DNA from: Aestuariibacter sp.
GTDB lineage: Bacteria; Pseudomonadota; Gammaproteobacteria; Enterobacterales; Alteromonadaceae
DNA: 64,000 nucleotides
NCBI GenBank assembly: GCA_017794925.1
Contig: CP051238.1
Coordinates: 2,910,957 to 2,974,956 of the forward strand
Reading direction: 5' to 3'
Numbering within the stretch: position 1 is the stretch's first letter; every line of letters starts with the position of its first letter. This document shows positions 14,793 through 45,990 of this stretch, piece by piece. A program made the position numbers and the translations under genes. The notes under the pieces were generated by a model. The model was not told where the DNA came from. It worked only from the letters and a program-made list of their open reading frames with translations, and ran no database searches.

Positions 14793-14869
14793 GGAGCGGT
14801 AGTTCAGTTGGTTAGAATACCGGCCTGTCACGCCGGGGGTCGCGGGTTCGAGTCCCGTCCGCTCCGCCA
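14793..14869 (+). tRNA. tRNA-Asp (GTC), copy 1
   Basis: A 77-base cloverleaf with encoded CCA. The acceptor arm GGAGCGG pairs with CCGCTCC, the anticodon loop is CTGTCAC (anticodon GTC), and the T arm contains GGTTCGAGTCC. It is identical to the copy 100 bp downstream. Confidence 0.97.
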
Positions 14870-14892
14870 TTAGCCTGATTCACATTCCCTGT

Positions 14893-14969
14893 GGAGCGGT
14901 AGTTCAGTTGGTTAGAATACCGGCCTGTCACGCCGGGGGTCGCGGGTTCGAGTCCCGTCCGCTCCGCCA
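14893..14969 (+). tRNA. tRNA-Asp (GTC), copy 2
   Basis: A second, base-for-base identical 77-base tRNA-Asp, separated from the first by 23 bp. Both are probably processed from one transcript. No integrase or att duplication lies beside them. Confidence 0.97.
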
Positions 14970-38683: not shown

Positions 38684-38905
38684 GGCGTTGATGACCGCTT
38701 ATGCAAAATTATTAGTTCTAAAATGAATTATTTGGCCTATACCTAAATAACCGCTCTTGATCACTAGCAGAATTGTCAGAATTCATTGGTACTCACATAT
38801 AGTCACTTCATCAGTACTAAGAAATTACAACGTGCTGATAATTCTTTATACTGACGTTAATCTTACTCAACTCACGGACCCGTTTTGTTTTCAGCCAACC
38901 TCGCA

Positions 38906-39346
38906 ATGGAAAAAGCAAATCAGTTTTCTCGTTTTGACCTCGATAATCCGTTATCAACGTGTTCAGAACATCCTATTTTACTGGAAGACCAAAACTGGCT
39001 TACCTGTGAACACTATGTTCAGGCAAAAACGTTAAAAAGTGCTCAGCAAGCCAGTAAGGTTGCTTCATTGATCTCGGGTGAACAAGCTTACGTTTATGGT
39101 AAGGCCTGGTACCGTGGAAAAATTAAGGACTATAAAAGCACAGCGCCGATACTGATGAAAAGGGCGCTGTACACTAAAGTGCAAATGTACGAGGAAGTGC
39201 GGGAAGCCTTACTGGCTACTGACGACAAGCTGATTGTCGAAACATCACAATACGATTATTTCTGGGGTATTGGTCGTGATCAGCGAGGATTGAATCATAT
39301 TGGCAAAGCGTGGATGGATATCCGGGATAAGTTACGCAACGCCTAA
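38906..39346 (+). CDS. NADAR-family (YbiA-like) protein
   Basis: A 146-residue protein with the NADAR pattern: NWLTCEHYVQAKTL near the N-terminus, W-Y-R-G-K followed by a lysine-rich helix ending in M..AL..KVQMYEEVREALLAT, then IVETSQYDYFWGIGRDQRGLNHIGKAWMDIRDKL. NADAR enzymes hydrolyse N-glycosidic bonds of ADP-ribose or riboflavin-pathway compounds. Upstream in-frame codons to 38885 are possible, but ATG 38906 is the first good start. It lies next to the toxin-antitoxin and attC-like region. Confidence 0.83.
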   Translation: MEKANQFSRFDLDNPLSTCSEHPILLEDQNWLTCEHYVQAKTLKSAQQASKVASLISGEQAYVYGKAWYRGKIKDYKSTAPILMKRALYTKVQMYEEVREALLATDDKLIVETSQYDYFWGIGRDQRGLNHIGKAWMDIRDKLRNA

Positions 39347-39356
39347 TTAACAGACT

Positions 39357-40076
39357 TCAGGTAAGCCGGTACTTCGCCAAATGTTCATAATGCTTCATTG
39401 CCTCGTCAAGCAGCGGCTGTAAGTCGTCCGGCACGTCGGGTAACGATCCTTCTGGACCTGCAAAACCGGTACTCTTCCAAACTTCCGGATACCAGTGTGA
39501 TGCCCATACGCCGTCAGATTTGTGTCCGCCGGCCGGCCAATTCAGCATGGCTGGATCCCATTTTATACCTATCGCCGAACATAGCTTTTCTAAAAACATG
39601 GCAGGGTTGGACCGAATATCGCCTGAATCAATCACAACAGGTGGCGCATCAGGCTGACTGGTTAGTTTGTCAAAAAGCGCAGCTTGTTCTTTCACACCAA
39701 TGTCGCTGAGTACGGGAATACCGTTTTTCCGGGTGTAACTGGCAATGACCCGGGCTGGATGTCGAATTAAAAACACGTGTTTAACAGCGTCCATCCATTT
39801 ATCAGGAAAGCCGGCTAACATGTGCTGGGGCATGTGTTTTTGGTAAAACAAGGTTTTATTGTCGGGGATAGGGCCGGCACAACGCTCGCCAACCTTTACT
39901 GGGTCGGTTTCTTCATTGGCAAAAATGACATCCAGCATGGGATCCGCTCTGCCGCCAATTTTCAGAAACGGGGCATAGAAGGGCTCATCCCATACAGCGC
40001 AATCGGCGCGAGCACCAAATGCATACATCATGGCGGTTGAAAGGTTTCTGGGTCCTGACCACATTGCAATACGCAT
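39357..40076 (-). CDS. Sulfotransferase-like P-loop protein
   Basis: A 239-residue protein with the sulfotransferase/P-loop start MRIAMWSGPRNLSTAMMYAFG (phosphosulfate-binding region) and a second nucleotide-contact segment VFLIRHPARVIASY. Substrate unknown; some members of this branch may be kinases rather than sulfotransferases. ATG 40076 is preferred because AAGGGAAA precedes it and it starts the P-loop strand. It is divergent from an nhaC gene and close to a class-IV aminotransferase. In plants the same two folds are fused in branched-chain-aminotransferase-like proteins. Confidence 0.78.
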   Translation of the reverse strand: MRIAMWSGPRNLSTAMMYAFGARADCAVWDEPFYAPFLKIGGRADPMLDVIFANEETDPVKVGERCAGPIPDNKTLFYQKHMPQHMLAGFPDKWMDAVKHVFLIRHPARVIASYTRKNGIPVLSDIGVKEQAALFDKLTSQPDAPPVVIDSGDIRSNPAMFLEKLCSAIGIKWDPAMLNWPAGGHKSDGVWASHWYPEVWKSTGFAGPEGSLPDVPDDLQPLLDEAMKHYEHLAKYRLT

Positions 40077-40325
40077 TACATTTCCCTTGTTCATATAAAC
40101 AACGTTTGGATGAGTACTAAACATTACGAAACTAGCTAAGCCGTTGCAACGTATTTCCCTTTTCTGCACGGACGATGCACCAATATCTGGCAGTGTGTGG
40201 TGATTTGGTAATTTTTAGCACAAAAATACGCAATATATTAGGCATTTAGACCGTATTTATCTGCCATGATTCTTGCATCTGTTTTCGTCAGTTAACCGCC
40301 AGCAGTACATAAAAAAGGAGCGCAA

Positions 40326-41735
40326 GTGACGACGGTGTCATCTCCATCAGGCCGGGCATTGGGTTGGGCTTTACTGCCCATTATCCTAACCGCGGCCATC
40401 CTGATGTATGTGTTATTTGTATTGAAAGGTGGTCCGCACATTCCTTTATTAGTCGGTTGTGCCATTACGGCGTTGATTGGCGTTTACCACGGTACTTGTT
40501 GGCAGGATGTGCAATCGTCAATGATTAAAAACATCGCAGAAAGCCTCCCTGTGCTGGGCATTTTTATGCTGGTAGGTATGACCATAAGTAGTTGGATTGC
40601 GGCGGGGACGGTACCATTTCTTACCGCGCAGGGAATTGCATTGATCTCTCCAGACTGGTTTTTGCCGGCGACCTGTTTATTGTGCGCGCTGGTGTCAGTG
40701 TTTACCGGTACGTCCTGGGGAACTGTCGGGACGATTGGTCTAGCCTTAATGGGGATGGCTGACGTACTGGGGATTTCGCCTGCACTGTGTGCAGGTGCTA
40801 TTGTTTCCGGGGCCTGGTTTGGCGATAAGATGTCGCCGCTATCCGATACCACCAATTTCACCGCAGCTATTGCCCGGGTAGATTTGTATGCGCATATTCG
40901 CAATATGATCCCCAGTACATTACCGGCAATGTGTCTTGCGTTGGTCATTTATTATTGGCTGGGGCCTGATACGTCAACTAAGACGCTGAACGATGGCGTA
41001 TTAGCTTCACTTTCTGCCAGTCTTGAAAAGCAATTTGATTTGGCCTGGTGGGTGCTTATTCCGCCCGGTGTGATTGCGTTGACAATCTACTTTCGACTCC
41101 CGGCTATTCCTGGCATATTTTTTGGTGTCGTATCTGCCTCTATTGTAGCAGTGCTCGGGCAGGGAGAGAGTCTGGATTCACTGGTTCAGCTGTTAATGAA
41201 TGGTTTTCAGAGTCAAACCGGACAACCCGGTTTGGACGCATTGCTGTCCAAAGGGGGCCTGATGTCGATGATGTGGGTCATTTCATTGATTATTCTGGCG
41301 ATGGCGTTGGGTGGCGCGTTACAAGCAACCGGGAGTCTTGAAACTTTATTGCACGCGCTGCTGAAAATAGCGAATACACGATTTAGATTGGTTGTTGTAA
41401 CGCTGTTGGCGGCACTGGGCTTTAACTTTGCCAGCAATGCCTTTATCGCTTATACCTTACCGGGCAGAATGTTGTTGCCTGCGTATCAACAGCGCGGGTT
41501 GTCCGGGGCTAATTTGTCACGTTTACTGGAGGACGGTGCAACCATGAGTGCGCCGCTTATTCCGTGGAATTCGGGGGGCGTTTTTGTGGCAGGTACACTG
41601 GGTATGCCGACCTTGTTTTATGCGCCTTTTGCATTTGCAAATTGGTTTGCGCCGCTGTTTGACCTGCTTTGGGCGGCATTAAACTGGTTTATGCCAACCA
41701 CAAGCGAAAAGCAAGATAAGATAAATAAGCTGTAG
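40326..41735 (+). CDS. NhaC-family Na+/H+ antiporter
   Basis: A 469-residue inner-membrane protein with about eleven to twelve helices. Family stretches are GMTISSWIAAGTVPFL, FTGTSWGTVGTIGLALMGMA and SGAWFGDKMSPLSDTTNF, the last being the NhaC signature. Members exchange Na+ for H+, or couple malate/lactate or amino acids. GTG 40326 has AAGGAG eleven bases upstream. The aminotransferase gene follows 20 bp later, so the two are likely one operon, perhaps moving a substrate or product of that enzyme. Confidence 0.88.
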   Translation: MTTVSSPSGRALGWALLPIILTAAILMYVLFVLKGGPHIPLLVGCAITALIGVYHGTCWQDVQSSMIKNIAESLPVLGIFMLVGMTISSWIAAGTVPFLTAQGIALISPDWFLPATCLLCALVSVFTGTSWGTVGTIGLALMGMADVLGISPALCAGAIVSGAWFGDKMSPLSDTTNFTAAIARVDLYAHIRNMIPSTLPAMCLALVIYYWLGPDTSTKTLNDGVLASLSASLEKQFDLAWWVLIPPGVIALTIYFRLPAIPGIFFGVVSASIVAVLGQGESLDSLVQLLMNGFQSQTGQPGLDALLSKGGLMSMMWVISLIILAMALGGALQATGSLETLLHALLKIANTRFRLVVVTLLAALGFNFASNAFIAYTLPGRMLLPAYQQRGLSGANLSRLLEDGATMSAPLIPWNSGGVFVAGTLGMPTLFYAPFAFANWFAPLFDLLWAALNWFMPTTSEKQDKINKL

Positions 41736-41755
41736 CGCAGTATTGAGGAAACACG

Positions 41756-42673
41756 ATGCAGGAACACAAAGCTGGCGGCGCTCACGCGTCGATTGATGAT
41801 GAAAGAAATCAACATATCAAAATTTATGTGAATGGTGATTTGGTACCCAAGCACGAAGCCAAAGTATCCGTTTATGATAGTGGGTTTATGCTGGGAGATG
41901 GCGTTTGGGAAGGATTACGACTTCACAAAGGCAAATTTGCGTTTATCGATGATCATTTAGATCGCCTGTTTGCCGGTGCGAAGGCGCTGGATATGGATAT
42001 TGGTAAAACCCGTCAGGAGCTTACCGATGCGCTTTATGCCACAGTAGAAGCAAACAATATGACCGATGGTGTACATGCACGTTTAATGGTGACCCGTGGG
42101 CCAAAGAAAACGCCGTATCAGGACCCAAGGCTCAGTTTGTGGGGGCCGACCATTGTGATTATTGCGGAGTATAAATCACAGGACCTGACACCTGTAGAGC
42201 AGGGCATTAAACTGTTTACCGTGCATGTGCGAAGAGGGCACCCGGATGTACAGGATCCGCGCTTGAACTCACACAGTAAAATAAACTGCATTACCGCTAT
42301 GATTCAGTCTTACAAAGCCGGTGCTGATGAAGCGCTGATGTTAGATCCGCACGGATTTGTGAGCACCTGTAACTCCACTAATTTCTTTATAGTGAGAAAA
42401 GGGGAAGTGTGGACGTCTACCGGTGACTATGCAATGAAAGGGATCACGCGGCAGAAAACCATTGATGTGTGCCGGAAGCACGGTATACCGGTTTTCGAGA
42501 AAAACTTCTCTTTAGTAGACGTATACAGTGCAGATGAAGCCTTTGTTACCGGCACATTTGGTGCACAAACGCCAGTTATCGACGTAGATGGGCGCAGTAT
42601 TGGCGAGGGTGAACCCGGCCCGATGGTTAAACGCATCCGCCAGCTGTATCACGATATGGCAGAACAAAGTTAG
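41756..42673 (+). CDS. Class IV aminotransferase (D-amino-acid/branched-chain type)
   Basis: A 305-residue PLP enzyme of fold type IV. VNGDLVPKHEAKVSVYDSGFMLGDGVWEGLR is the family N-terminus; the PLP lysine is in SHSKINCITAMIQS; EALMLDPHGFVSTCNSTNFFIV and GITRQKTIDVCRKHGI complete the active site. It moves an amino group between an amino acid and a 2-oxo acid; the exact substrate is unclear. A hydrophilic extension of about 20 residues precedes the domain, so an internal start is possible. It follows the nhaC gene and is near the sulfotransferase-like gene. Confidence 0.86.
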   Translation: MQEHKAGGAHASIDDERNQHIKIYVNGDLVPKHEAKVSVYDSGFMLGDGVWEGLRLHKGKFAFIDDHLDRLFAGAKALDMDIGKTRQELTDALYATVEANNMTDGVHARLMVTRGPKKTPYQDPRLSLWGPTIVIIAEYKSQDLTPVEQGIKLFTVHVRRGHPDVQDPRLNSHSKINCITAMIQSYKAGADEALMLDPHGFVSTCNSTNFFIVRKGEVWTSTGDYAMKGITRQKTIDVCRKHGIPVFEKNFSLVDVYSADEAFVTGTFGAQTPVIDVDGRSIGEGEPGPMVKRIRQLYHDMAEQS

Positions 42674-42683
42674 CGTTGTCGCT

Positions 42684-42716
42684 GACCTGTCAACGCTTGT
42701 TCACCGTTGGCAGGTC
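42684..42716. terminator. Hairpin between the convergent aminotransferase and lysR genes
   Basis: GACCTGTCAACG (42684-42695) pairs with CGTTGGCAGGTC (42705-42716), 12 bp with one G-T pair. Neither side has a T-run, so termination is only weakly supported. It overlaps the lysR stop codon. Confidence 0.4.
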
Positions 42717-43616
42717 GTTATCCCAATAAGGGATATCCCCATAATACTGGCTGGCAAAGTCGATAAATGCCCGTACTTTACTGGCCAGCAGTTGTCGATG
42801 GGCATAAACCGCATACAAGTTAATAGGCTCAGGTTCCAATTCAGGCAAGATTACCGTTAAGTCTCCACGTCGTAGTGCATCAAAGCAAATAAAGGTAGGT
42901 TGCAATACAACGCCCTGACCCAGTTCCGCTACCTGACTGAGCAAGCCGCCATGGTTACAACTCAGGCTTCCCATTTGGTCGTGCGTTGTGTCAGATAAGT
43001 ACTGATGAGGCAGCGGGCCATTGTCGGCATCGAGGTAACTGTAGCGTAAATAATTGTGTGTTTTCAGGGCTTCCAGGTTTTTTGGCATCCCAAATTTCGC
43101 CAGATAGTCAGGTGATGCACACATCACCATACGAATTTGGGTCAGCCTTTTTGCAATAAGAGACGAGTTTTTCAGGTTGCCGATACGCAGGGCAATATCA
43201 AACCCTTCTTCGACAATGTCGACTTTGCGGTCGTTTAACTGCAAGTCGATATCGACATCAGGAAACTGTCGCTGAAAGGCGTGAATCAGCGGCGCTAAAT
43301 GCATTGTGGCAAATGCGACTGGGGCGCTGATCCTCAACAGGCCTCTGGCTGCCGTTTGCATTTCACCCAGTTGGTCTTCCATTTCATCAATATCTTCGAG
43401 TACCTGTGCTGCCCTTACCAGATAACGTTCACCCGCTTCTGTCAGGTGCACCTTTCGGGTTGTACGATTTAATAATCGTGTATTGAGATGGGCTTCCAGT
43501 TGCGAAACATATTTACTGATTAACTGTGGGCTCTTGTCGAGTTTGTCTGCAGCAGCGCTAAACGCGCCGAGTCTGGCAACTGAGACAAAAGCACGCATGG
43601 CTTCAATTCTATCCAC
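42690..43616 (-). CDS. LysR-family transcriptional regulator
   Basis: A 308-residue LysR protein. The N-terminal helix-turn-helix is MRAFVSVARLGAFSAAADKLDKSPQLISKYVSQLEAHL..RLLNRTTRKVHLTEAG; the remainder is the periplasmic-binding-like effector domain of the CrgA/DmlR-like subgroup. It is divergent from the DoxX gene with 148 bp between, and an ATC-N11-GAT dyad lies in that gap. It therefore probably controls the DoxX / hydroquinone-reductase / dioxygenase group. Confidence 0.9.
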   Translation of the reverse strand: MDRIEAMRAFVSVARLGAFSAAADKLDKSPQLISKYVSQLEAHLNTRLLNRTTRKVHLTEAGERYLVRAAQVLEDIDEMEDQLGEMQTAARGLLRISAPVAFATMHLAPLIHAFQRQFPDVDIDLQLNDRKVDIVEEGFDIALRIGNLKNSSLIAKRLTQIRMVMCASPDYLAKFGMPKNLEALKTHNYLRYSYLDADNGPLPHQYLSDTTHDQMGSLSCNHGGLLSQVAELGQGVVLQPTFICFDALRRGDLTVILPELEPEPINLYAVYAHRQLLASKVRAFIDFASQYYGDIPYWDNDLPTVNKR

Positions 43617-43630
43617 TGTGACATTTAGAT

Positions 43631-43649
43631 TATCAATGAAATGTTGATA
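43631..43649. promoter_or_regulatory. Candidate LysR binding site
   Basis: TATCAA-TGAAATG-TTGATA is a dyad of the ATC-N11-GAT (T-N11-A) type that LysR proteins bind. It lies 15 bp upstream of the lysR start, in the divergent region shared with the DoxX gene. Confidence 0.5.
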
Positions 43650-43764
43650 GTTAGTCTATTTCATTGGGGTTAATCAATCAATAGGAGTTAAGTATAGTTA
43701 GCACACTGATGACGCGAAGGGGTAGTTCCCTTTGAGCACAATGACACTATTTTGAGGAATTATC

Positions 43765-44220
43765 ATGAATACGAAATTACTAACTTCACTGTTTACATCT
43801 AACGCTGGCCTGTCGGCTTTGATCCTTAGAGCGCCTGTTGGCATTGTGCTAGCAGCTCACGGTGCGCAAAAATTATTTGCTTGGTTCGGTGGCTACGGCT
43901 TGGAAGGCACCGGGCAGTACATGGAAAGCATTGGTCTGGCACCAGGTTTCCTGATGGCGCTATTAGCCGGTAGTGCAGAATTCTTCGGTGGTCTGGCGTT
44001 GGTGTTAGGCTTGCTGACACGACCTGCCGCACTGGTGAGTGCCTTTACCATGCTTATGGCCATCTTTACCGCGCATATCAGCAACGGATTATTCCTGTCG
44101 AACGGCGGTTACGAATACGCGCTGGCACTGTTTGCCGCAACCTTATCGCTGGTGTTTAGCGGAGCAGGGCGACTAGCAGTGGACAACCTGATTGCGAATA
44201 AATTCGTGTCGGCCCAGTAG
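43765..44220 (+). CDS. DoxX-family membrane protein
   Basis: A 151-residue protein with four membrane helices. Typical DoxX stretches are LRAPVGIVLAAHGAQKLFAWFGG and GSAEFFGGLALVLGLLTRPAALV. In E. coli the related yqjF lies beside the hydroquinone reductase gene yqjG and responds to quinone-type compounds. The same pairing is seen here. The function is probably in redox or thiol stress at the membrane (inference). GAGGAA precedes the ATG. Confidence 0.88.
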   Translation: MNTKLLTSLFTSNAGLSALILRAPVGIVLAAHGAQKLFAWFGGYGLEGTGQYMESIGLAPGFLMALLAGSAEFFGGLALVLGLLTRPAALVSAFTMLMAIFTAHISNGLFLSNGGYEYALALFAATLSLVFSGAGRLAVDNLIANKFVSAQ

Positions 44221-44245
44221 CTTTGTCGAAAAAAAGGAGACGAAG

Positions 44246-45196
44246 ATGTTAGTGAATGGAAAATGGGATGCCAACTGGCATCCCGTTCAAAGCAAAGATG
44301 AGCAAGGCCGGTTTATTCGTCAAACATCGTCCTTTCGCAATTGGATCACGCCTGATGGTGCGCCCGGACCCACCGGTAAAGGTGGGTTTAAAGCCGAACC
44401 GGGTCGTTACCACCTGTACGCTGCGTTAATCTGCCCCTGGGCAAGCCGTGTGCTAGCAGTGCTAGCGTTGAAAGGATTAACTCGCTATATCAGCGTAACC
44501 ATCGTTAATCCGCGATTAAGTGAACAGGGCTGGCAATTTGGTGGCTATGAAGGCGCTCAGCCAGACCCGTTGATGAACGCCAGCTACATGCACGAAATAT
44601 ACACCCAGGCTGACTGCCATTTTACCGGCCGCGCAACCGTACCTGTGCTATGGGACAAGCAACAACAAACCATAGTAAACAACGAATCAGCTGATATCGT
44701 GCGTATGCTGAATACGGCGTTTGCCGACTTTACCCAACACGGGCCAGAGCTGTATCCTGAAGCGCTGGCAAATGACATAGAGCACTGGAATGACAGGATT
44801 TATACCCAGTTAAACAACGGTGTGTATCAGGCGGGCTTTGCCTCTTCCCAACAAGCTTACGGCGAGGCGTACGACAATGTGTTTACCATGCTCGACGTGT
44901 TGGAAAACACGCTGGGCGATGGACGGGAATATTTGCTGGGTAATCAGTTAACCGAAACCGATATTCGCTTGTTTGTTACGCTGGTAAGGTTTGACGTTGC
45001 GTATTACGGTTTGTTTAAGTGTAATAAAAAGCCGATCCGCGACTACGCGCATTTGCAGCGTTACATGATGCGCATATACCAATTAGAGGGTATGGCAGAG
45101 ACCGTTAATATCGACCATATCAAAGCGGGTTATTACTCCATTAAAGCATTGAATCCATCGGGTATAGTGCCGAAAGGGCCGGAGACTGATTTATGA
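44246..45196 (+). CDS. Glutathionyl-hydroquinone reductase (YqjG/Xi-class GST)
   Basis: A 316-residue omega/xi-like glutathione transferase. The catalytic cysteine is Cys63 in ALICPWASR, the same number as E. coli YqjG. WDANWHPVQ near the start, VPVLWDKQQQTIVNNESADI (glutathione-binding) and the all-helical C-terminal domain ending VNIDHIKAGYYSI are typical. It removes glutathione from glutathionyl-hydroquinones. AAAGGAG (44234-44240) fixes the ATG; the frame is open upstream. It overlaps the dioxygenase gene by four bases. Confidence 0.93.
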   Translation: MLVNGKWDANWHPVQSKDEQGRFIRQTSSFRNWITPDGAPGPTGKGGFKAEPGRYHLYAALICPWASRVLAVLALKGLTRYISVTIVNPRLSEQGWQFGGYEGAQPDPLMNASYMHEIYTQADCHFTGRATVPVLWDKQQQTIVNNESADIVRMLNTAFADFTQHGPELYPEALANDIEHWNDRIYTQLNNGVYQAGFASSQQAYGEAYDNVFTMLDVLENTLGDGREYLLGNQLTETDIRLFVTLVRFDVAYYGLFKCNKKPIRDYAHLQRYMMRIYQLEGMAETVNIDHIKAGYYSIKALNPSGIVPKGPETDL

Positions 45197-45990
45197 ATAC
45201 CACAAAGCAGATTGTCTTTATTTCCCACGGTGGCGGTCCACTGCCTTTGTTGAACGATCCTGCACATGCTGCACTGGTCGAGCAATTGAAAACGCTGCCA
45301 CAGAAACTGCGCAAGCCTAAAGCGATTATTGTGATAAGTGCCCACTGGGAAGCAGATGAGATTCGGGTTACTGACGCATCAGCTCCGGCACTACTCTATG
45401 ATTACTATGGTTTTCCGCCTGAAAGCTATCAAATCAAATATCCGTGTAAGGGAGAGCCTGAATTAGCGAAGAGTATTGTGGCTGAACTCAACGGTGCAGG
45501 GATCCCGGCTAAAACAGAATCTAAGCGCGGTCTTGATCACGGCGTATTTGTACCACTGAAGCTCATGTACCCTGAGGCTGACATTCCGGTGGTGCAAGTG
45601 TCGCTGTCGGCAACGCTTGATCCTGCATTGCACCTGCAAGTGGGCGAAGTTCTGGCGCAAATACCACAGGATGATCTGTTGATTATTGGCTCTGGTTTTT
45701 CGTTTCACAATATGCGGGCATTTTTCTCACCGGCAACGGCGCAAACACAACAGTTAAACAACGCGTTCGAACAGTGGTTGAAGGACAGCCTGTCTTTAAA
45801 ACACAGCTACGCTTCAATTCGAGAACAACTGACTAACTGGGAACAAGCGCCGGGAGCCCGGTTTTGCCATCCGCGAGAAGAGCATTTGTTGCCTCTGCAT
45901 GTATGCGCTGGCGCTGCTGGCAGGGGAACCGATAACTATGAAGACATCATGGTGCTGAACAAACGCGCCGGCTTTTTTGGCTGGTTCTAA
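45193..45990 (+). CDS. 4,5-DOPA dioxygenase extradiol-like protein (YgiD/LigB)
   Basis: A 265-residue LigB-fold extradiol dioxygenase. Metal-binding histidines are seen in FISHGGGPLPLL, VISAHWEAD and LDHGVFVPLKLMYP; GSGFSFHNMRAF is also conserved. Relatives cleave catechol-type rings such as DOPA. It follows the hydroquinone reductase with an ATGA overlap, so both are made together, in line with turnover of catechols and quinones. Confidence 0.9.
   Translation: MNTTKQIVFISHGGGPLPLLNDPAHAALVEQLKTLPQKLRKPKAIIVISAHWEADEIRVTDASAPALLYDYYGFPPESYQIKYPCKGEPELAKSIVAELNGAGIPAKTESKRGLDHGVFVPLKLMYPEADIPVVQVSLSATLDPALHLQVGEVLAQIPQDDLLIIGSGFSFHNMRAFFSPATAQTQQLNNAFEQWLKDSLSLKHSYASIREQLTNWEQAPGARFCHPREEHLLPLHVCAGAAGRGTDNYEDIMVLNKRAGFFGWF

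Follow-up and report, generated by a model that had tools for sequence, protein, structure and literature searches.

We show that two genes carried by Aestuariibacter sp. (contig CP051238.1 of assembly GCA_017794925.1), one encoding a sulfotransferase-fold protein (here SULF) and the other a protein of the class IV aminotransferase fold (here AT-like), recur together across three bacterial phyla, and that all AT-like proteins read lack the lysine to which aminotransferases of this class bind pyridoxal 5'-phosphate (PLP) as an internal aldimine. The window, i.e. the whole stretch of 64 000 nucleotides that was analysed, carries the two genes on either side of a gene for an NhaC-family antiporter. 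Both fold assignments are established, that of SULF by a confident model and that of AT-like by sequence together with a solved relative. We suggest, as the explanation that we rate a little better than even, that the two proteins form a sulfation module in which a 3'-phosphoadenosine 5'-phosphosulfate (PAPS)-type sulfotransferase works with a repurposed aminotransferase-fold partner. The three genes are as follows.

39357..40076, minus strand: SULF, PAPS-type sulfotransferase of family PF19798, 239 aa from the ATG at 40076 (reading frame open to the GTG at 40169)
40326..41735, plus strand: NhaC-family antiporter (TIGR00931), inside the pair in this lineage only and not a core member
41756..42673, plus strand: AT-like, class IV aminotransferase-fold protein (PF01063) without the PLP lysine, 305 aa

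The original prediction, which grouped these genes into a pathway modifying and transporting an amino acid or oxo acid, had located them correctly: the reading frames are confirmed and their Pfam matches exceed the cut-offs for Sulfotransfer_5 (PF19798, 263 bits against 23.2; frame 39357–40169, minus strand), Na_H_antiporter (PF03553, 175.8 against 23; 40326–41735, plus strand) and Aminotran_4 (PF01063, 134.9 against 28.5). The spacer of 20 bp that it gave between NhaC and AT-like is also there (41736–41755). In NCBIfam, the NhaC protein passes the TIGR00931 equivalog cut-off (405.8 against 370); AT-like falls below the cut-off of all 18 models listed (best PRK08320, 258 against 363; IlvE_I, 207 against 245.55). 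Judged from the sequence, the true start of SULF is more likely the ATG at 40076 than the upstream GTG at 40169, because relatives begin with the same MRIAMW and, in the long frame, the PF19798 match starts only at residue 32. The closest named loci belong to the Alteromonadaceae (Aestuariibacter sp. GS-14 and Marisediminitalea aggregata), and the full frames and 90–98% identity between Alteromonadaceae loci of the window's type rule out pseudogenes. PAPS synthesis requires adenosine 5'-phosphosulfate kinase; the window's genome encodes one, as well as three class IV genes besides AT-like.

Linkage in other genomes, on which the original prediction depended, is borne out for SULF and AT-like. 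The same genome samples were searched for SULF (by PF19798 or profile A2, 53 sequences) and for AT-like (by profile A1, 13 sequences), with score limits for ortholog calls chosen after the gaps in the lists were seen. Among 398 Pseudomonadota, 37 carry both genes, none SULF only, four AT-like only and 357 neither (Fisher p 5e-48, uncorrected for shared ancestry and overstated, since the samples partly overlap and relatives are not independent). PF19798 matches occur in 38 of these genomes, 37 of which have an ortholog (at least 179 bits), always accompanied by AT-like (at least 384 bits); remote paralogs (at most 81 bits) are the sole copy in G393 and second copies in G122, G278 and G369. The two matches lie no more than 500 bp apart in 27 of the 37 genomes, and in the window NhaC intervenes. 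A sample of 60 relatives, some of them also in the Pseudomonadota sample, gave nine with both, no single occurrences and 51 with neither. SULF matches were found in 23 of 198 Actinomycetota, and the 13 with copies of at least 232 bits are exactly those with AT-like (at least 372 bits), within about 105 bp of SULF; counted at that limit, there are no single occurrences and 185 genomes have neither. Finally, SULF is present in 21 of 149 Planctomycetota, 20 of which also have AT-like, and AT-like never occurs there without SULF. AT-like reaches at least 308 bits in 19 of the 20; in the twentieth (G763) it starts 5 bp behind SULF and the contig ends there. Fifteen of these pairs are adjacent, one is cut (G763), two are separated by 2–3 kb and two have their genes on different contigs. 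Given that the pair is conserved across three bacterial phyla, SULF and AT-like probably share one job or pathway.

The arrangement of the pair was followed in 57 distinct close pairs from outside both the window and the Planctomycetota. AT-like precedes SULF in 42 and follows it in six, eight pairs are divergent and one is convergent; with the starts chosen, 16 overlap by 1–7 bp. Since there are several gene orders and the genes are mostly adjacent, adjacency has outlived rearrangement. The distance matrices of the two proteins correlate over these pairs (r 0.56, with none of 9999 permutations as high), as expected if the genes travel together. AT-like is the more conserved partner (median distance ratio 1.5), with 96 and 98% identity against 77 and 74% for SULF in loci L005 and L006, respectively. 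These are also the only two of the 57 in which NhaC stands between the genes, as it does in the window, and the only ones with gaps of NhaC size (1694 bp in L005 and 1668 bp in L006). The six other divergent pairs have spacers of 297–303 bp without NhaC (the search for NhaC in those genomes covered the spacer), which suggests that NhaC entered, or was lost from, the spacer in one lineage. We therefore reject NhaC as a core member: of the proposed three-gene pathway, the SULF/AT-like pair stands and the membership of NhaC does not.

The original prediction treated AT-like as a working transaminase and did not notice that asparagine replaces its PLP lysine. The archaeal branched-chain aminotransferase (BCAT) segment IKSLNYLNN aligns without gaps with LNSHSKINC of the window's protein, which makes Asn171 the counterpart of the Schiff-base lysine. 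In the profile alignment, lysine occupies this place in none of 80 distinct AT-like proteins (57 Asn, 23 His) and in all 26 ordinary class IV proteins. These 106 distinct hits come from the loci collected, and the 80 (at least 308 bits) include the 13 sequences of profile A1; the 26 score at most 285 bits, a gap that is narrow at its edge, although the tree described below separates both groups. Residue 171 was read in the collected loci, leaving aside the AT-like proteins of nine unlinked genomes of family f71 (485–508 bits) and the too-short G763. Five Pseudomonadota hits of 210–225 bits and eight Actinomycetota hits of 226–284 bits were classed as ordinary; the two and seven of them, respectively, that were fetched all carry lysine. 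Alignment A3 has false N-terminal extensions on some rows. The active-site positions in the window's protein are as follows.

42266..42268, plus strand: Asn171 (codon AAC), aligned without gaps to the Schiff-base lysine of archaeal BCATs
42365..42367, plus strand: Thr204, at the place of the glutamate that binds the PLP ring nitrogen (AT-like: T 50, S 7, E 23; ordinary: E 26/26)
42278..42280, plus strand: Lys175, aligned with the tyrosine that contacts O3' of PLP (AT-like: K 50, L 19, R 7, Q 4; ordinary: Y 23, L 2, R 1)
41963..41965, plus strand: Arg70, phosphate-cup residue, kept in 80/80 AT-like
42446..42448, plus strand: Thr231, phosphate-cup residue, kept in 80/80 AT-like
42554..42556, plus strand: Thr267, phosphate-cup residue, kept (T in 79/80 AT-like, S in one)

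Roles were assigned by reference to the fold type IV transaminase Halhy, for which the available text of PMC8401098 gives K143 as the Schiff base, E176 at the ring nitrogen, Y147 at the phenolic oxygen and R52, I202, T203 and T239 as phosphate contacts; the phosphate-cup roles of Arg70, Thr231 and Thr267 follow from the same text. The states are coupled, Asn occurring with Thr or Ser (57) and His with Glu (23), so that the ring-nitrogen glutamate is lost in the Asn branch and present only in the His clade. Lys175 is ruled out as a substitute lysine, the position being Arg in seven, Leu in 19 and Gln in four of the 80. With no lysine for an internal aldimine, AT-like is unlikely to be a conventional transaminase.

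The fold itself is of type IV: all 50 entries shown for the AT-like model (mean pLDDT 78.7) are class IV-type by title, with fold scores (VIA Z) of 27.5–33.2. The nearest solved structure is 7z79, an 'aminotransferase-like protein' of Variovorax paradoxus with 50% identity (VIA Z 33.2). Entry 9j32 is the N174K mutant of that protein; counted on the alignment, N174 corresponds to Asn171, and thus the missing lysine evidently did not escape its depositors. In a quick tree of 105 rows, in which long branches meet among the ordinary enzymes, the lysine-less proteins form one clade (Shimodaira–Hasegawa-like approximate likelihood-ratio support 98) that splits into sister Asn (N) and His (H) clades (99 each). 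Because close pairs with SULF are present in both, the pairing probably predates the N/H split.

The AlphaFold2 model of SULF (pLDDT 95.6) has the sulfotransferase fold. It matches best the sulfotransferase domain of olefin synthase (4gox; VIA Z 14.4, root-mean-square deviation 3.8, 217 residues aligned), that of curacin synthesis, CurM (4gbm; 14.1, 3.7, 217), and tyrosylprotein sulfotransferase (TPST) 1 (5wrj; 14.1, 4.2, 213), with sulfotransferases other than TPSTs ranking below these at 11.7 or less. Searched against the PDB, the SULF profile finds only the CurM and olefin-synthase domains under E 0.01 (4.8e-9 and 1.3e-7). Three stretches stand out.

40035..40061, minus strand: W6-SGPRNLST-14, candidate 5'-phosphosulfate-type loop (W6, P9, R10 and S13 invariant in 53 aligned sequences)
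39738..39764, minus strand: R105-HPARVIA-S113, 3'-phosphate-binding type motif (R105, P107 and S113 invariant in the 53)
39822..39839, minus strand: K80-HMPQ-H85, candidate catalytic stretch, role predicted (K80 invariant, H85 in at least 90% of the 53)

The first of these, a possible equivalent of the 5'-phosphosulfate-binding loop, places GPRNLST at the turn from a strand (2–7) to a helix (10–21) in the model and differs from the classic PKSGTTW or PRSGTT. In the second, presumably the 3'-phosphate motif, R105 and S113 show the eight-residue spacing of such motifs, and the same place reads 'LvRhPysViesf' in the CurM alignment. SULF would be PAPS-dependent.

Taken together, SULF and AT-like may well constitute an ancient two-protein module with a joint function. 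SULF would carry out PAPS-dependent sulfation of a hydroxyl on a small metabolite, probably an amino-acid- or oxo-acid-like one. AT-like would be a descendant of class IV aminotransferases that forms no internal PLP aldimine. It has kept the phosphate cup, and its ligand is probably amino-acid-like or one that bears a phosphate or sulfate; it may serve SULF as a substrate-handling partner or catalyse a neighbouring, lysine-independent step. NhaC would be a neighbour specific to this lineage and may transport what the module uses or makes. A bolder version of the sulfation module, in which AT-like is a retired PLP aminotransferase whose phosphate cup now accommodates a sulfated or phosphorylated metabolite, as well as an obligate partner of SULF in an unknown sulfur-metabolite pathway running across phyla (and into plants, should the fusion considered below hold), seems to us speculative and on the whole rather doubtful.

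Several observations weigh against the module. Four of the 41 AT-like-bearing Pseudomonadota (G274, G299, G331 and G384) have no SULF, and in nine of the 37 with both, all of family f71, the genes are distant or on separate contigs. Ten more Actinomycetota lack AT-like and have only a weaker SULF (at most 187 bits; where read, its loop is the variant PRSxST), and SULF also stands without AT-like in three metagenome-assembled genomes (MAGs), G446 (L019) and the Halieaceae G447 and G448 (L020, L021), in each of which the best class IV gene has the ordinary lysine. The distance correlation is moderate, and shared ancestry or species history contributes to it. The SULF loop is PRNLST rather than PRSGTT, and the AT-like model is weak right around residue 171 (162–173). 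Moreover, when the frames of 52 loci were clustered, no constant third gene was found around the pair, so that the context names no substrate.

Considering the alternatives, the main rival is that AT-like is still a PLP or pyridoxamine 5'-phosphate (PMP) enzyme, working without an internal aldimine like the His-for-Lys sugar dehydratase ColD: SULF would sulfate an amino-acid hydroxyl and AT-like would eliminate or replace the sulfate ester. The kept phosphate cup and the H clade (23/80), with its ring-nitrogen glutamate and a histidine exactly at the lysine place, speak for such chemistry, as do the only PDB profile matches of SULF, to domains that activate a hydroxyl for elimination. The window's own branch (57/80) has lost the glutamate too and carries Lys or Arg at the O3' tyrosine place, and in fold score CurM and the TPSTs are level; we regard a lysine-independent PLP/PMP reaction as unlikely overall, and as likelier in the H clade than in the window's N clade. 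AT-like could instead be a binding or regulatory pseudoenzyme without chemistry of its own: it would sense an amino acid, PLP or a phosphate metabolite and adjust SULF accordingly. That the contacts to the PLP ring are gone while the phosphate cup is kept, and that AT-like is more strongly conserved than SULF, would be consistent with this; however, AT-like lies behind ABC (ATP-binding cassette) importer-like genes without SULF in three genomes, a sign that it may act independently, and we judge a purely regulatory protein distinctly unlikely. A conventional pathway, in which an amino acid would be transaminated by AT-like and the product then sulfated by SULF and exported by NhaC, has the Pfam class IV match and the amino-acid-type transporter genes that adjoin AT-like in some lineages (the ABC genes named by eye) in its favour but is very improbable, given the absence of the PLP lysine in 80/80, the scores under all 18 NCBIfam cut-offs and the inconstancy of NhaC.

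We return with the sulfation module to its surroundings, where neighbouring genes were named by eye unless a model is given. In G274, G299 and G384, three of the four AT-like-only Pseudomonadota genomes, AT-like lies behind two permease-like genes and one ATPase-like gene of the amino-acid ABC importer type. The transport of an amino or oxo acid put forward in the original prediction is thereby hinted at but not established. ABC-linked stretches without SULF were located at L095:4305–8370, L096:7501–13059 and L097:2263–8122, and their AT-like genes nest within the N clade; those of L096 and L097 contain an MmgE/PrpD-like gene on the opposite strand. An MsrA-like gene (GGCFWC) occurs near SULF in 18 of the 52 loci (L074–L083, L085, L086, L098–L100, L013, L014 and L019), one Phycisphaerae MAG included. 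As a third partner, this gene and an argG-like one (15 loci) were rejected, for both look like Rhodobacterales-like synteny, save the MsrA-like gene of L019. Genes like those for lipoamide dehydrogenase and pyruvate dehydrogenase E2 lie upstream of the pair in L102 and L103 (family f61); being neighbours in some f61 genomes only, they were rejected as partners as well. Remote PF19798 paralogs with the loop PRSTST (L068:2904–3656 and L069:2926–3741) have no AT-like nearby and adjoin Rieske-oxygenase-like and RpiR-like genes (in L068 also an aldehyde-dehydrogenase-like gene); they belong to a different sulfotransferase pathway.

In the window, a NADAR-domain gene (38885–39346, plus strand; PF08719, 84.7 bits) adjoins SULF; in NCBIfam its score is marginally too low for the riboflavin-intermediate N-glycosidase model (72.9, cut-off 73.7) and much too low for the anti-phage NADAR model (41, cut-off 240). 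On the other flank of the pair, 42690–45990 holds LysR, DoxX, glutathione S-transferase and LigB/DOPA-dioxygenase-like genes, an order kept in eight Alteromonadaceae-type loci (L005–L011 and L017), and looks like a separate locus. Two tandem tRNA-Asp (gtc) genes lie at 14793–14969 (plus strand).

With respect to known systems, both folds would be fused in the plant branched-chain-aminotransferase-like proteins, as the original prediction supposed. In the window, unlike in a fused protein, the two folds are on separate genes, and none of 3080 frames of at least 120 aa from the collected loci has both motifs in one chain by motif pattern. Bacterial fusions are rejected also for the frames of 638 aa (L093) and 513 aa (L101), which span both genes but have AT-like in another frame. 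For plants, the protein name 'branched-chain-aminotransferase-like' occurs in print, and a Chlamydomonas paper, in the text available, lists a gene name and nothing more. The main text of PMC12506393, which collected plant sulfotransferases with PF19798, does not contain the word 'aminotransferase', nor does that of the paper on moss HIP6, which has a sulfotransferase domain. If plant proteins share both folds, the answer would extend to plants.

CurM and the Synechococcus olefin-synthase sulfotransferase are polyketide synthase domains that act on carrier-bound acids and activate a hydroxyl for elimination. Although they are the top fold matches of SULF and its sole PDB profile matches (E 0.01), SULF stands alone and has 15–19% identity to them. 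TPST1/2, which are Golgi enzymes acting on proteins, tie with CurM in fold score (VIA Z 13.4–14.1) at 11–13% identity. On the AT-like side, the fold and phosphate cup are shared with the fold type IV BCATs and D-amino-acid aminotransferases (5e25, VIA Z 31.1; 1daa, 29.2), but the 26 ordinary enzymes have Lys, Glu and mostly Tyr where the window's protein has Asn, Thr and Lys. AT-like thus resembles a BCAT by domain, yet lacks the lysine of that chemistry in every member read. ColD is a sugar dehydratase with His for Lys; such an exchange is found not in the window's AT-like (Asn) but in the sister H clade (23/80). The Variovorax paradoxus protein 7z79, on the function of which, as on the SULF/AT-like pair, no paper was found in the literature searched (covering few subscription journals), belongs to the AT-like family and has Asn at the same lysine place, while by its NSHSR motif and its sequence it is similar to the SULF-less, ABC-linked branch, unlike the window's pair. 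The near-constant sulfotransferase partner offers a testable clue to the role of these lysine-less proteins, the crystallized Variovorax one included.

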